Assembly: GCA_902787185.1 (NCBI GenBank) | Contig: CADAFP010000014.1 | Span: forward strand, 1 to 44,213 | Length of the DNA stretch: 44,213 bases | Reading direction: 5' to 3' | Origin: an uncultured Bacteroidales bacterium | GTDB taxonomy: Bacteria; Bacteroidota; Bacteroidia; Bacteroidales; Muribaculaceae | Part shown: positions 26,135 to 33,423 of the stretch, piece after piece | Position numbering within the stretch: position 1 is the stretch's first letter | How the letters are laid out: every line of letters begins with the position of its first letter | Position numbers and translations under genes: made by a program | Notes under the pieces: generated by a model | Told to the model about the DNA's origin: nothing | The model's input: only the letters and a program-made list of their open reading frames with translations | The model's database searches: none

Positions 26135-28936
26135 ATGCCGATAAAGATCAGTAAAGTCATCGCAGATTTGAACGTGGGTAGGCAGACCATCGAGGAATTC
26201 CTGCACAAGAAAGGCATCGCCATCGATGCCAGCATCAATGCGCGCATCCAGGATGATGTCTATGAGATGCTTGTGAAGGAATTCAAGCCCGATATGGACC
26301 TGAAGAGCAAGTCGGAAAAAATGGCCTCCGAGCGACAGAAAGAGAAAGCCAAGCACAGTGCCAGCAAGGAGTCACGTGAGATCAAGACCGAGATTCCGGT
26401 ACAGAAGCCCAAAGTTCTCGGGAAGATCGAGTTGGATGCCAAGGGAAATCCCAAGCCGGCAGCCAAGGCCAAGCCGGAGCCTGAGGTTCCCGCTCCCAGC
26501 GTTGAGGAGAAGGCCGAGCCTGTTGTTGTCGAGGCGCCCGCTCCCAAGGCTGAGGCCCCGGAGCCTGTCAAGGAACCGAAGCAGGAGGCACCCGCTCCCG
26601 AACCTGTACAGGTCGAGGTACCCGCTCAGCCCGAACCCGTTGAGGAGGTTCCGACAGTTGAGCCCGAGCCCGCCGTTGACGAGGAGCCCGAGGCCGCACC
26701 TGCCGAGCCTGACGTGTTCAAGCCCGTTTCTGAGACCGTCGGTGGTCCGCAGCTCAAGGTTGTGGGCAAGATTGAGCTGAGCTCCCTCAATCAGCAGACC
26801 CGTCCTCGCAAGAAGAGCAAGGAAGAGCGCCGCAACGAGCGCATCGCCAAGGCTGCCGAGGGCAGCAAGCGCAAGCGCAAACGCATCGGCAAGGAAAAGG
26901 TTGATATCGAACAGGCCGGTAACCAGCCCGCGGCCCAGCCTCAGGGCAAGTCGCGCGGTGGCGGCAAGGACGACCAGGGCGGCAAGCGCAATAAGGACAA
27001 AAAGAGCAACCGCAGGCCGCTGCGTCCCGAGGTAAGCGAGGAAGACGTTCAGCGTCAGATGAAGGAGACGCTGGCACGCCTCACCGCCAAAAATACCAAG
27101 AAGGCTGCCGCAACGCGCCGTCGCGAGAAACGCGAGGAGATGCGTGAGGAGGCCCGCGAGGAAGCCGCACTGGCAGCAGCTCAGAGCAAGATCCTGAAGC
27201 TCACCGAGTTTGTGACCGCCAACGACTTGGCCAGCATGATGAATGTGCCCATCAACAAGGTCATCGCCACCTGTATGAATCTGGGTGTCATGGTGAGCAT
27301 CAACCAGCGCCTCGATGCCGAGACCATCAATATCGTGGCCGATGAGTTCGGCTTCAAGACCGAATACACCAGTGCTGAGGTGGCTGAGGCCATCAGCGAG
27401 GAAGAGGACCGTCCCGAAGACCTCGTGCAGCGCCCGCCCGTGGTGACTGTCATGGGTCACGTTGACCACGGTAAGACCTCGTTGCTCGACTACATCCGCA
27501 ACTCCAACGTGATTGCCGGTGAGGCCGGTGGTATCACGCAGCACATCGGTGCCTATAACGTGAAGCTGCCCAATGGCCGCCGCATCACCTTCCTGGATAC
27601 ACCTGGTCACGAGGCGTTTACCGCTATGCGTGCCCGTGGTGCCAAGGTGACCGACATCGTTATCGTCATTGTGGCAGCCGACGACAACGTCATGCCGCAG
27701 ACCGTCGAGGCGTTGAACCACGCATCGGCTGCCGGCGTGCCCATCATCTTTGCCATCAACAAGATTGATAAGCCCAGCGCCAACCCTGAGAAGATCAAGG
27801 AAGAGCTGGCCAATATGAACTACCTCGTCGAGGACTGGGGTGGCAAGTACCAGAGCCAGGATATTTCGGCCAAGAAGGGTATCGGCGTCAGCGAACTGAT
27901 GGAGAAGGTGTTGCTCGAGGCCGACATGCTCGACCTCAAGGCCAATCCCAACCGCAAGGCGACGGGTTCCATCATCGAGTCGTCGCTGGATAAGGGCCGT
28001 GGCTACATCGCCACCGTGCTTATTGACAACGGTACGCTCCACGTGGGCGACATCGTGCTTGCCGGTACACACTTCGGTAAGGTGAAGGCGATGTTCAACG
28101 AGCGCAACCAGCGCATCACCGAGAGCGGCCCCTCGACCCCGGCCCTGATTCTGGGTTTGAACGGTGCTCCCACTGCCGGTGACAAGTTCAATGTCATGGA
28201 CACCGACCAGGAGGCTCGCCAGATTGCCAACAAGCGCGAACAGCTGCAGCGCGAGCAGAGCCGCCGCACGCAGCACCGTGTCAGCCTTGAGGATATCGGC
28301 CGCCGCCGTGCCCTGGGTGAGTTCCACGAGCTCAACTGTATCGTCAAGGGTGATGTGGACGGTTCGATCGAGGCTCTGAGCGACTCGCTCATCAAGCTCT
28401 CGACCCCTGAGGTTCAGGTCAATGTTATCCACAAGGCTGTCGGCGCCATCACCGAGAGCGACGTCACCCTGGCGGCAGCCAGCGATGCCTACATCATCGG
28501 TTTCCAGGTGCGCCCGTCGGCTTCGGCCAAGCGTGCCGCCGAGCAAGAGGGTGTGGACATCCGCCTGTACTCCATCATCTATGACGCCATCGAGGAGGTC
28601 AAGAGCGCTATGGAGGGTATGCTCCAGCCCGACATCAAGGAAGAGGTTACCGGCAGCGCCGAGGTGCGTCAGGTTTACCACATCAGCAAGGTGGGTACCA
28701 TTGCCGGTGCCATGGTTGTCGAGGGCAAGATCAAGCGTGGCAGCAAGGTGCGCGTGATTCGCGACGGTATCGTTATCCATACCGGCGAACTGGCCTCGCT
28801 CAAGCGCTTCAAGGACGACGCCAAGGAGGTTACCAGCGGCTTTGACTGCGGCTTGAGCCTCAAGTCCTACAACGACCTGCAGGAGATGGATATCATCGAG
28901 GCCTTTGAGGAAATCGAGGTTCACAAGACCTTGTAA
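26135..28936 (+). CDS. infB: Translation initiation factor IF-2
   Basis: A 933-residue GTPase that delivers initiator tRNA to the 30S subunit. The ATG at 26135 ([15 protein letters not shown]...) gives the usual Bacteroidetes N-terminal IF2_N domain; an upstream TTG would only add unrelated residues. Residues about 90-220 are a P/E/A-rich linker, about 230-340 a basic helical stretch, then a second IF2_N domain ([22 protein letters not shown]) and the G domain with [17 protein letters not shown] and NKIDK. Domains II-IV complete the protein. folK follows one base after the stop codon. Confidence 0.98.
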
Positions 28937-28937
28937 C

Positions 28938-29396
28938 ATGATTTATTACCTGAATATAGGTAGCAATATAGGCAACCGGCGCGATAACCTCTATCGCGCC
29001 GTTGTTGCATTAGCGGCTGATGCTGGCGAATGTTCCGTTTCCAGCATCGTAGAGAGCGAACCGTGGGGATTTGAGAGCGAGAACCGCTTTATGAACCTGG
29101 GCATGAGTCTGGTCAGTGACGTCGAGCCCCACGAGATGCTTGACCGCATCCATGACATCGAGCGTGGCTTGGGCAGCGCCACCCACCGCGACGAGCATGG
29201 CGGCTACATCGACCGCCTGGTGGATATCGACATCGTTGCCATCGACGACCTTGTCATCGACACCCCCACGCTGCAGGTGCCTCACCCGCATCTGCCCGAG
29301 CGCGACTTCTTTCTGCGCCCCATGATGCAGCTTGCCCCCGACTGGCGCCACCCCGTCACAGGCCTCACTGCCGCCGAGATGCTGGAAAACCTCTGA
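28938..29396 (+). CDS. folK: 2-amino-4-hydroxy-6-hydroxymethyldihydropteridine pyrophosphokinase (HPPK)
   Basis: A 152-residue folate-pathway kinase that transfers pyrophosphate from ATP to 6-hydroxymethyl-dihydropterin. Family motifs: NIGSNIGNRRDNL at the start, ESEPWGF, NRFMNLG, RLVDIDIVAID with metal-binding aspartates, and VPHPHLPERDFFLRPM. The ATG at 28938 lies one base after the infB stop; the frame upstream is only the overlap with infB. Likely translated from the infB transcript. Confidence 0.96.
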   Translation: MIYYLNIGSNIGNRRDNLYRAVVALAADAGECSVSSIVESEPWGFESENRFMNLGMSLVSDVEPHEMLDRIHDIERGLGSATHRDEHGGYIDRLVDIDIVAIDDLVIDTPTLQVPHPHLPERDFFLRPMMQLAPDWRHPVTGLTAAEMLENL

Positions 29397-29499
29397 CTTT
29401 TTTTCAAATTGATTTGTGTCCGGTAAAGATATTCAGTATCGGCATAATTCCCTATATATGAGTTGGATAAGCATTTTGCTGTATCAGGGGCTTGGCTTT

Positions 29500-29774
29500 T
29501 GCCTCGAAGAGGCAGGTCGGGTCGAAGACTCGACTTTTATGGAAAACACCATGCCAGCTCATCGCAGATGAGCGCAGCTTGGTGGCAGCCATCTCAAGTA
29601 GAAAGTGCGTCGAAGACGAACTTCCGCATCACTCAAAATACTGCCAATCACAAAGTTCCTCTCCGAGGCACTTGCATAGTTCTGCTCATAGACCAAGCTG
29701 CGAACCTCTCCGAGGTTCTTGCATGGTCTTTCTCATTGAAATCGGTTCTTCGAACCGCTAACATCAGCGATGTT
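29500..29774. other. Array of eight short hairpins with a long-range stem (structured non-coding region)
   Basis: Palindromes, most with 3-nt loops: TGCCTC-GAA-GAGGCA (29500-29514); GTCGA-AGAC-TCGAC (29521-29534); GCTCATC-GCA-GATGAGC (29557-29573); AAGTgCGTC-GAA-GACGaACTT (29603-29623); AAGTtCCTC-TCC-GAGGcACTT (29653-29673); GAACCTC-TCC-GAGGTTC (29702-29718); CGGTTC-TTC-GAACCG (29743-29757); AACATC-AGC-GATGTT (29760-29774). In addition CGCAGCTTGGT (29573-29583) is perfectly complementary to ACCAAGCTGCG (29692-29702), enclosing hairpins 4 and 5. Hairpins 5 and 6 and their downstream flanks repeat with a 47-base period. No plausible protein is encoded. It fills most of the 643-base gap after folK. 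Confidence 0.7.
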
Positions 29775-29796
29775 TCCCCGGACTCTAATGGTTTTT

Positions 29797-29886
29797 AATG
29801 CGAATTTCACGAATTTATTAATTGGATTCGTGTCATTTGCCTCATTCGTGTAATTCGCATTAGCCCCGCAGGGTTCAGGGCCAAAT
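29797..29886. repeat. Intergenic inverted repeat and second copy of the 8327 repeat
   Basis: Arms AATGCGAATTTCACGAAT (29797-29814) and ATTCGTGTAATTCGCATT (29844-29861) pair with one mismatch over 18 bases. ATTAGCCCCGCAGGGTT (29859-29875) is shared exactly with 8363-8379. Confidence 0.7.
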
Positions 29887-30039: not shown

Positions 30040-30498
30040 ATGAAGAAATTCTTACTCAGTTTAACCCTTATGGTAGCTTCACTGGCTGCATGGGCTGAGG
30101 CGGGTTTCTACGTGATGGACAATCAAGGTGTTTGTGTCGAGTACGTGTTCTTGGATCAACCGTCCTGGACATTTGAGGGCAACAACCTTGTGATCACCAC
30201 CGTAGAAAGTTCCGTCGAATATCCCATGGACGATGTGGCTCAAATCGTCTTTGACGATATCGTTCACACAGGACTCAATGAGGTCAAAGTTGACGAGATG
30301 ATCCGTTTCGTTAACGGTGGCGTTGAATTGGCAGGCTTCGCTGCCAACACGGCGGTCACCGTCTATAACCTGCAAGGCCAGCAAGTGGCGACCTACCGCA
30401 CTGGCGAAGCCGGTTCACTCAACCTCAGCCTTGACGGCCTGGATCAGGGCATTTACATTATCAAAGCAAACAAATCAACCATTAAAATCAAGAAATGA
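30040..30498 (+). CDS. Small secreted protein with T9SS-type sorting tail
   Basis: A 152-residue protein with a clear signal peptide (KKFLLSLTLMVASLAAWA). The middle part (FEGNNLVITTVESSVEYPMDD...IVFDD) resembles the short beta-rich modules placed before sorting tails in Bacteroidales, and the end (AVTVYNLQGQQVATYRT...LDQGIYIIKANKSTIKIKK) fits a T9SS type A tail. Nearly the whole mature protein is therefore sorting machinery, with about 50 residues of cargo. The next gene overlaps it by four bases. Function unknown. Confidence 0.78.
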   Translation: MKKFLLSLTLMVASLAAWAEAGFYVMDNQGVCVEYVFLDQPSWTFEGNNLVITTVESSVEYPMDDVAQIVFDDIVHTGLNEVKVDEMIRFVNGGVELAGFAANTAVTVYNLQGQQVATYRTGEAGSLNLSLDGLDQGIYIIKANKSTIKIKK

Positions 30499-33340: not shown

Positions 33341-33349
33341 GTGTATGAG

Positions 33350-33423
33350 TCGGGGTGAGAGGACTCGAACTTCCGACCTCCACGTCCCGAACGTGGCGCG
33401 CTAACCAACTGTGCTACACCCCG
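33350..33423 (-). tRNA. tRNA-Pro (anticodon CGG)
   Basis: 74 bases on the minus strand. Acceptor stem CGGGGTG/CACCCCG with discriminator A, D loop AGTTGGTTA, anticodon stem CCACG/CGTGG with loop TTCGGGA (anticodon CGG), and T loop TTCGAGT. CCA is not encoded. The T stem GGAAG/CCTCT contains one A-C mismatch as I read it. Own promoter and terminator, so a single-gene unit. Confidence 0.95.

Follow-up and report, generated by a model that had tools for sequence, protein, structure and literature searches.

A 275-bp block at positions 29500-29774 of a 44,213-nt stretch of DNA from an uncultured Bacteroidales bacterium (Muribaculaceae; contig CADAFP010000014.1 of assembly GCA_902787185.1; the whole stretch is referred to here as the window) is crowded with short palindromes. 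It raises the question of whether they belong to a new structured RNA, to a regulatory leader, or to a non-autonomous mobile repeat, the three options named in the original prediction. The block contains five perfect hairpins (stem of at least 6 bp, loop of 3 to 4 nt); 879 sliding 275-bp segments taken across the whole window, including those that overlap the block, contain a mean of 0.26 and a maximum of 4. Two further stems carry an internal mismatch (29603-29623 and 29653-29673) and one includes a G-T pair (29516-29534), which brings the total to the eight palindromes that had been predicted. The two mismatched stems share the frame AAGT-x-CNTC-NNN-GANG-x-ACTT and are the pair, D and D' below, for which a common AAGT...ACTT frame had been noticed. 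The eight hairpins are arranged as four and four in mirror order (A-B-C-D, then D'-C'-B'-A'), as two inverted copies of a single unit, 131 nt (unit 1) and 129 nt (unit 2) in length. The predicted 11-bp complement between 29573-29583 and 29692-29702 is exact, and it exists because the units are inverted, the conserved arm CGCAGCTTGGT of unit 1 opposing its copy in unit 2. The 47-base repeat described for the fifth and sixth hairpins corresponds to D' and C', which have the tip CCTC-TCC-GAGG in common.

The ORF to the left of the block ends at 29396, and the one to its right starts at 30040. Two other ORFs (29463-29798 and 29492-29761) cross the block, running through hairpins with compensatory change; a decayed gene was rejected because the stems change in pairs and both of these frames are mechanical only. 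The predicted RNA fold of 29480-29800 beats 100 of 100 shuffles on both strands (z of -5.3 and -7.5). A scan of the window against Rfam gave a single match above cut-off, a tRNA outside the block, namely a tRNA-Pro (cgg) at 33349-33423 on the minus strand. The best weak match inside the block reached 17.6 bits against a cut-off of 48, and no known RNA family was assigned there.

Comparison with copies in the same genome and in relatives places the block in a larger element of approximately 380 bp, which reaches beyond the limits first given to it and starts 14 bp past the stop codon of the upstream ORF (28905-29396). We consider this element to be, quite probably, a composite non-autonomous mobile repeat in which a REPIN-like doublet of single-stranded DNA hairpins is packaged in a MITE shell of DDE type, a reading drawn from comparative sequence analysis. 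Its parts are listed here, with R1 denoting the covariance model of the unit described below.

29411-29790, no strand: whole element, read as an IS4-type MITE shell around an inverted doublet of four-hairpin units; boundaries from copies in the same genome and relatives
29411-29427, plus strand: left terminal inverted repeat GATTTGTGTCCGGTAAA, consensus yATTrGTGTCCGGkAAA; identical or similar ends are carried by insertion sequences (IS) that encode IS4-type transposases
29428-29496, plus strand: left inner shell segment, without a unit, common to copies L034 and L036
29497-29627, plus strand: unit 1, hairpins A, B, C, D from outer to inner (R1, E 7.7e-27)
29501-29513, plus strand: hairpin A, loop GAA
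29516-29534, plus strand: hairpin B, loop GAA
29547-29584, plus strand: hairpin C, conserved arms CACCATGCCAG / CGCAGCTTGGTG, variable tip at 29557-29573, loop GCA
29603-29623, plus strand: hairpin D, AAGT-G-CGTC-GAA-GACG-A-ACTT
29628-29648, no strand: spacer between the inner unit ends, the position of the transposase gene in Y1 loci
29649-29777, minus strand: unit 2, inverted copy; the plus strand reads D', C', B', A' (R1, E 7.1e-26)
29653-29673, minus strand: hairpin D'
29691-29728, minus strand: hairpin C', tip at 29702-29718
29743-29757, minus strand: hairpin B'
29760-29774, minus strand: hairpin A'
29773-29790, minus strand: right terminal inverted repeat TTTCCCCGGACTCTAATG

The expectation that the block would recur in this genome and in other Bacteroidales was borne out, for the latter within the same genus. 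A BLASTN search with 29440-29880 against the own assembly, which comprises 3.2 Mb in 102 contigs and is 81% complete, returned 47 matches at E of 1 or less, many of them short or self-matches, and copies or fragments of the element are present at about a dozen other loci. They include a subfamily A (the window copy and L031-L036) and a diverged subfamily B (L037, L038, L040, and L042). Matches to the element occur in 45 of 101 genomes, that is, in 45 of the 61 from the same genus and in none of the 40 from other genera. A phage or plasmid origin was set aside, as 72,556 plasmid and 50,697 phage records gave no match to the element and viral contigs gave no exact match to the conserved-arm pattern.

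The outer layer has the properties of a MITE: inverted ends shared with IS, a duplication of fixed length (9 bp, in other copies), many copies, and no coding capacity. Ends beginning with CATTAGTGTCCGG, as on the shell, are present on two IS from other families in the order (L173 and L174). The open frame of L174 has 411 codons and that of L173 only 234; in the scanned pieces, both gave a hit to DUF4372 and L173 also one to DDE_Tnp_1. Proteins related to that of L174 were detected in 7 genomes out of 37 from the genus and in 8 out of 24 others. Two of these proteins are encoded in the genus by intact IS, L304 (an open frame of 400 codons) and L305 (398 codons), which have similar, non-identical ends (ATTAGTGTCCACTAAAA and ATTAGTGTCCCGTTAAA) and, by eye, a perfect 9-bp duplication each. 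The matching ends on DUF4372-encoding IS, together with the 9-bp duplications, mark the shell as an IS4-type MITE, IS4 being the family name indicated by the domains and the duplication length.

The 9-bp sequences immediately outside the shell ends agree with at most one mismatch in 11 of 38 copies and with at most two in 13; when the two sides were taken from different copies, the corresponding figures were 6 and 36 of 1406 combinations. This test dropped 13 loci without a usable end pair, and the end motifs of L034, L036, and L042 were set by hand, L036 still being dropped. The ends of subfamily B are two bases longer, so that the fixed register can miss duplications visible in L033 and L034. 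At up to two mismatches, 25 of the 38 copies have no duplication, and the window copy has no recognizable one (5 of 9 positions mismatched). The many copies, the inverted ends, and the target duplications at other copies all agree with the mobile-repeat option of the original prediction. The shell would most likely be moved in trans by an IS4-type (DUF4372, DDE_Tnp_1) transposase that generates a 9-bp target duplication. Searches of the own assembly, at 81% completeness, with DDE_Tnp_1 and with the L174 transposase gave no match, and an autonomous IS4-type partner in this genome was discarded as a candidate.

The nature of the inner layer, an inverted doublet of a 131-nt four-hairpin unit, is shown by Y1 transposase loci such as that on the own-genome contig C40. 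This contig encodes a 149-aa protein with a Pfam Y1_Tnp domain (E 3.7e-21) that scores 60 bits against NCBIfam transpos_IS200 (cut-off 55), and the gene has a window-type hairpin cluster on both sides, in inverted orientation. The association holds in relatives. Among 30 Y1 loci, both flanks carry units at 11 of the 12 genes whose products are at least 71% identical to the C40 protein and at none of the 18 more distant genes; the twelfth close gene (L113) has a unit on one side, and its locus reaches the contig end. Among 40 named GTDB loci, a set that overlaps the first in genomes, 21 of 24 genes at least 73% identical have inverted units on both sides and the remaining 3 on the only side present, with a few units cut by contig edges. 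Two partial genes (L242 and L243) also have units on both sides; the more distant named genes have both-sided units in 0 of 14 cases, with one weak one-sided match. The titles of the named loci refer to uncultured Muribaculaceae, Prevotellaceae, Porphyromonadaceae, and Bacteroidales bacteria, several of them from goat, sheep, roe deer, or buffalo gut. Since the same unit flanks Y1 (HuH, IS200-like) genes in inverted orientation, the doublet can be read as the unit-gene-unit arrangement minus its gene, which would make it REPIN-like with very large "REPs."

Other Y1 clades have other units. A sister family, read at contig C58 of the own genome, has the four-hairpin plan with different arms. Of 35 further loci, 11 have it on both sides and L235 has it on one, some of these loci being one gene from two sources; the same search gave no match at L119-L121, L125-L127, and L236, despite similar identity. 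A third unit family is present at L133 and L134. In a tree built from 57 different Y1 proteins, all 28 that have window-type units (clade 1) form one group with support of 98/96, in a bootstrap that had not fully settled. The two proteins with third-family units group at 100/100, and the 10 with sister units form one clade together with L236. All unit labels require 4 changes on this tree, compared with a mean of 25.0 when shuffled. A test that makes no use of the units gave inverted similarity between the two flanks of at least 30 bits at 51 of 53 non-redundant Y1 genes (the misses being L125 and L238), compared with 0 of 42 for control flanks 870-1200 bp away; direct-orientation similarity at the same threshold occurs at 20 of the 53. 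The Y---Q--HH signature is present at 33 of 35 loci, the other two being alignments of fewer than 30 residues, and HuH at 32 of 35; a weak alignment to 2f4f (E 2e-4) places these HuH and Y motifs on its HIH and YIeeQ. Several distant Y1 loci outside the three unit clades, L119-L121, L126, and L127 among them, mostly have inverted flanks where both are present.

Unit number also follows the clade. Genomes with a clade-1 Y1 gene have 6-54 unit matches (12 genomes) versus 0-27 in those without (25 genomes; rank test, P 9e-6), a comparison made on incomplete assemblies and in which each pair of Y1 flanks contributes two units. Many units are present in two genomes in which no clade-1 Y1 gene was found, G028 (19) and G036 (27, with only a 42-residue Y1 match). 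The own genome has four Y1 matches. At C58:13419-14058, four-hairpin units of the sister family bracket a paralogous Y1 gene, and C75:14501-14630 holds two sister units as an inverted doublet.

To define the unit, 35 full copies were hand-picked from Y1-gene flanks, leaving out truncated or interrupted ones (alignment A1); the four-hairpin structure was taken from one of them, and R1 was built on A1. From 98 matches, 46 units of window-type elements (A2) and 17 from other contexts (A3) were chosen by length and score. The element ends in A2 are partly unverified, several belonging to the 13 loci dropped from the duplication test and others being poor. In A1, 96.9% of cells are paired, changes on both sides are present in 20 of 32 pairs, and the covariation score of 0.385 (0.121 when shuffled) was not reached by any of 500 shuffles. 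Sliding the partners by 1-3 columns reduces pairing to 33-42%, and RNAalifold by itself gives 18 doubly changed pairs of 29. The scores of A2 (0.322 versus 0.112 shuffled, much of it reflecting the split between left-type and right-type units) and A3 (0.407 versus 0.157) also exceed 500 of 500 shuffles; all such counts are inflated by kinship among the sequences. The stems are thus under selection for structure, as had been suggested from the constant geometry of the palindromes, and the expected covariation is present in units from this genome and its relatives. In the A2 units 98.2% of pairs are retained, compensatory changes included, and the invariant arms are mostly unchanged, which suggests that the structure has remained under selection after packaging. 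In hairpin C the arms are conserved and the tip varies freely yet still pairs. The clade-specific hairpin-C arms CACCATGCAAG / CGCAGCTTGGTG are a probable recognition element of the clade's Y1 protein.

R1 matches 22 units in the own genome. Two are at the C40 Y1 gene, 18 are spread over eleven loci, each with one or two IS4-type ends (on contigs C14, C32, C16, C12, C26, C25, C6, C63, C80, C23, and C21), and one each on C75 and C58 belongs to the sister family. Over 61 genomes, R1 detects the unit in 31 of 37 from the genus and, weakly (8.7e-4), in 1 of 24 others. Arrangements beyond the simple inverted pair exist, such as tandem direct copies (L284, contig C36 of G014) and a doublet beside a Y1-flanking unit (the L115 region, contig C30 of G014). 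One further doublet (L276, contig C25 of G014) is bounded, by eye, by a direct repeat of roughly 27 bp, a length well above that of the other duplications.

The loops point to DNA as the active form. Read from outer to inner hairpin, loops of the GNA type make up 123 of 140 in Y1 flanks, 164 of 184 in window-type elements, and 61 of 68 in other contexts. In total they account for 348 of 392 loops, 322 of them closed by C-G, and the complement type TNC for 4, the counts coming from related, non-independent rows; the middle base varies among A, T, G, and C. GNA loops form extraordinarily stable DNA minihairpins, to judge by the titles of Hirao 1994 and Yoshizawa 1997 as cited in PMC11101458. In single-stranded DNA folding, all three units compared are more stable as the GNA strand than as its complement. 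The GNA loops and the greater stability of the GNA strand as DNA are the reason for preferring a role as single-stranded DNA to one as RNA. The unit would most likely act as single-stranded DNA, with four minihairpins and mostly GNA loops, and would be the substrate of the Y1 proteins of its clade.

Units of clade 1 are not confined to one shell. Ends of the type GTAACTATTCAGCGATT (at most one mismatch) occur in 15 of 61 genomes, the own genome not among them, and of 30 such loci examined, 6 (5 places) contain clade-1 units: L182/L194, L188, and L199 with both ends and L177 and L181 with one. By eye, an 8-bp duplication is perfect at L188, L176, and L184, has one mismatch at L202, and is absent at L182 and L196; among the loci scored for it, only L188 and L182 bear clade-1 units. 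An IS66-family transposase adjoins one such end in L197, and for this reason we call the shell IS66-like. Two copies in G005 (L281 and L285) have ends beginning GGGACACCTGCAAAA, and a single unit in the same genome (L267) lies between another end pair with an 11-bp direct repeat, all by eye. The clade-1 cargo is consequently present in at least three different shells, the ends of the further ones having been identified by eye. Two loci with GTAACTATTCAGCGATT-type ends (L196 in G034 and L202 in G027) have other multi-hairpin interiors without a clade-1 match, which are possibly units of further Y1 clades.

Conversely, one shell holds at least two cargos. Nine MITE-like interiors, from 20 places examined out of a longer list with IS4-type ends, were compared with the Y1 loci. 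A clear match to the third unit family was obtained for L161, L162, L163, L169, and L170 and a weak one for L166; the interior of L158 matches clade-1 units weakly, and those of L159 and L160 match none. L158 (G004, 100-500) has a perfect 9-bp duplication, and its interior, distantly akin to the clade-1 unit (59 and 50 bits), is perhaps an intermediate unit family. IS4-type ends were found around none of the 12 clade-1 Y1 genes at up to three mismatches, and the only hits among the Y1 loci, at L123 and L130, are outside the clade; the fusion of shell and doublet has thus not been caught in the act.

These observations bear on three other explanations. A structured RNA (a leader, small RNA, or terminator cluster) spread by a MITE, with its fold active in the transcript, is compatible with the strong covariation and folding energy and with the intergenic position directly after an ORF. 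However, the two units are on opposite strands, which means that a single transcript would include one of them in sense and the other as its complement; Y1 genes of the clade have this inverted pair on their flanks as well; and the unit-strand loops are mostly of the GNA kind that, according to the titles cited in PMC11101458, is extra-stable in DNA. Together with the lack of an above-cut-off Rfam match in the block, this makes an RNA role very unlikely, and neither the structured-RNA nor the regulatory-leader option of the original prediction is upheld. An ordinary MITE whose hairpins are passive remnants, of common origin with the Y1 flanks and in no present working relation to them, would explain why all 18 of the own-genome clade-1 matches outside the Y1 locus are at loci with at least one IS4-type end and why the window element is nearer to complete elements in other species (as much as 90% identity) than to the Y1 flanks of its own genome (75-76%). 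Against this explanation, the A2 units keep nearly all pairs, with compensatory changes, and largely the invariant arms, the units recur in at least three kinds of shell, and the arms differ among Y1 clades; we regard it as unlikely.

Movement of the doublet by the Y1 transposase only, with the inverted ends as a preferred target or a matter of chance, fits the gene-less REPIN form of the doublet and the single and tandem units without visible IS4-type ends in G005 and G014. An IS200-type insertion is not expected to produce a target duplication. The 9-bp duplications at the inverted ends in 11 of 38 copies, and the presence of such ends on IS encoding IS4-type transposases, run against this explanation, which is disfavoured and extremely improbable.

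IS200/IS605 elements carry tnpA between subterminal hairpins, without inverted ends or duplication. The window element differs from them in having no gene and in having inverted ends, and Y1 flanks are inverted copies of each other. Bacterial MITEs with IS4- or IS66-type ends share with the window element the short non-coding body, inverted ends, target duplication, and IS relatives whose ends are identical or similar. Unlike in such MITEs, the interior matches Y1-gene flanks rather than a parent IS, and one interior occurs in different shells. TIRYT elements are similar in that a Y1 gene is enclosed by inverted repeats, and a number of these repeats make up families.

The closest likeness is to REPIN/REPtron (TnpA-REP/RAYT) systems, which in excerpts of PMC6006769 and PMC3733652 comprise a Y1 (HuH) gene between inverted palindromic units, further inverted doublets genome-wide, and different units for different transposase clades. 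Inverted doublets with further copies and a cognate Y1 gene flanked by the unit are likewise present here. However, REP units in these excerpts are 20-40 nt long and have a GTAG (GT[AG]G) foot, whereas the present unit has about 131 nt and four hairpins, and no GTAG is present among the defined consensus positions. REP class-2 proteins there have Y---NP, whereas the motif here is Y---Q--HH and the C40 protein scores 26 bits against NCBIfam REP_Tyr_transpos, below the cut-off of 80. Most own-genome copies are, unlike REPINs as described there, inside DDE-type shells. Because the short unit, the GTAG foot, and the class-2 protein are all lacking, the element was set apart from REP-RAYT. We file it as putative large four-hairpin REP-like units that belong to Y1 transposases of subclass-1.2 signature and are enclosed in MITE shells of DDE type.

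Subclass 1.2 of TnpA-Y1 has, in excerpts of Quentin et al. 2018 (PMC6006769), the signature Y---Q--HH with HuH, a core of reduced length and a C-terminal domain of its own, is found mostly in Bacteroidetes (and Cyanobacteria), has few copies per genome, and generally lacks typical terminal IS200 structures. The present proteins, compared by signature, agree in Y---Q--HH, HuH, and the low copy number (the four Y1 matches of the own genome), and depart from this partial description in the inverted-repeat flanks at 51 of 53 genes and the four-hairpin units in two clades. An open-licence literature search yielded, among the matches listed, REP/RAYT papers and none that in the text returned dealt with four-hairpin units or Bacteroidales MITE-shell doublets. 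A DNA partner is thereby proposed for a Y1 subclass described as generally without terminal structures, and this partner would be a four-hairpin unit of unusual size, with strong covariation and triloops of DNA type.

The occurrence of one cargo in several shells, and of at least two cargos in one shell, stands out most and raises the question of whether two chemically different transposases cooperate. The Y1 units in DDE shells may be mere leftovers, or the shell may benefit from the action of Y1. A broader idea, which we offer tentatively and consider rather doubtful, is that unrelated DDE-family MITE shells repeatedly take up hairpin doublets of a co-resident subclass-1.2 Y1 transposase and gain from its action at the fork. 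In such a partnership, Y1 acting on the hairpins at the replication fork would supply what the shell lacks, possibly single-strand copy-back or donor-site repair after cut-and-paste excision, or the exchange of interiors between shells. If this were true, subclass 1.2 would consist of REP-like systems whose partner DNA was overlooked because the units have multiple hairpins. The GNA loops, invariant arms, and clade-specific units are ready substrates for binding and cleavage assays.

Two further observations are minor. A Y1 gene 55% identical, with strongly inverted flanks, is present on a contig labelled Oscillospiraceae (L237), which represents either a transfer or a mis-binned contig. Adjoining the window element, 29796-29862 is a separate near-perfect inverted repeat with 19-bp arms that are 95% complementary and 29 nt apart. 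This stretch has its own short matches in the genome, on contigs C46, C4, C24, C59, C10, C64, and C51 among others, and may represent a second palindromic repeat family.
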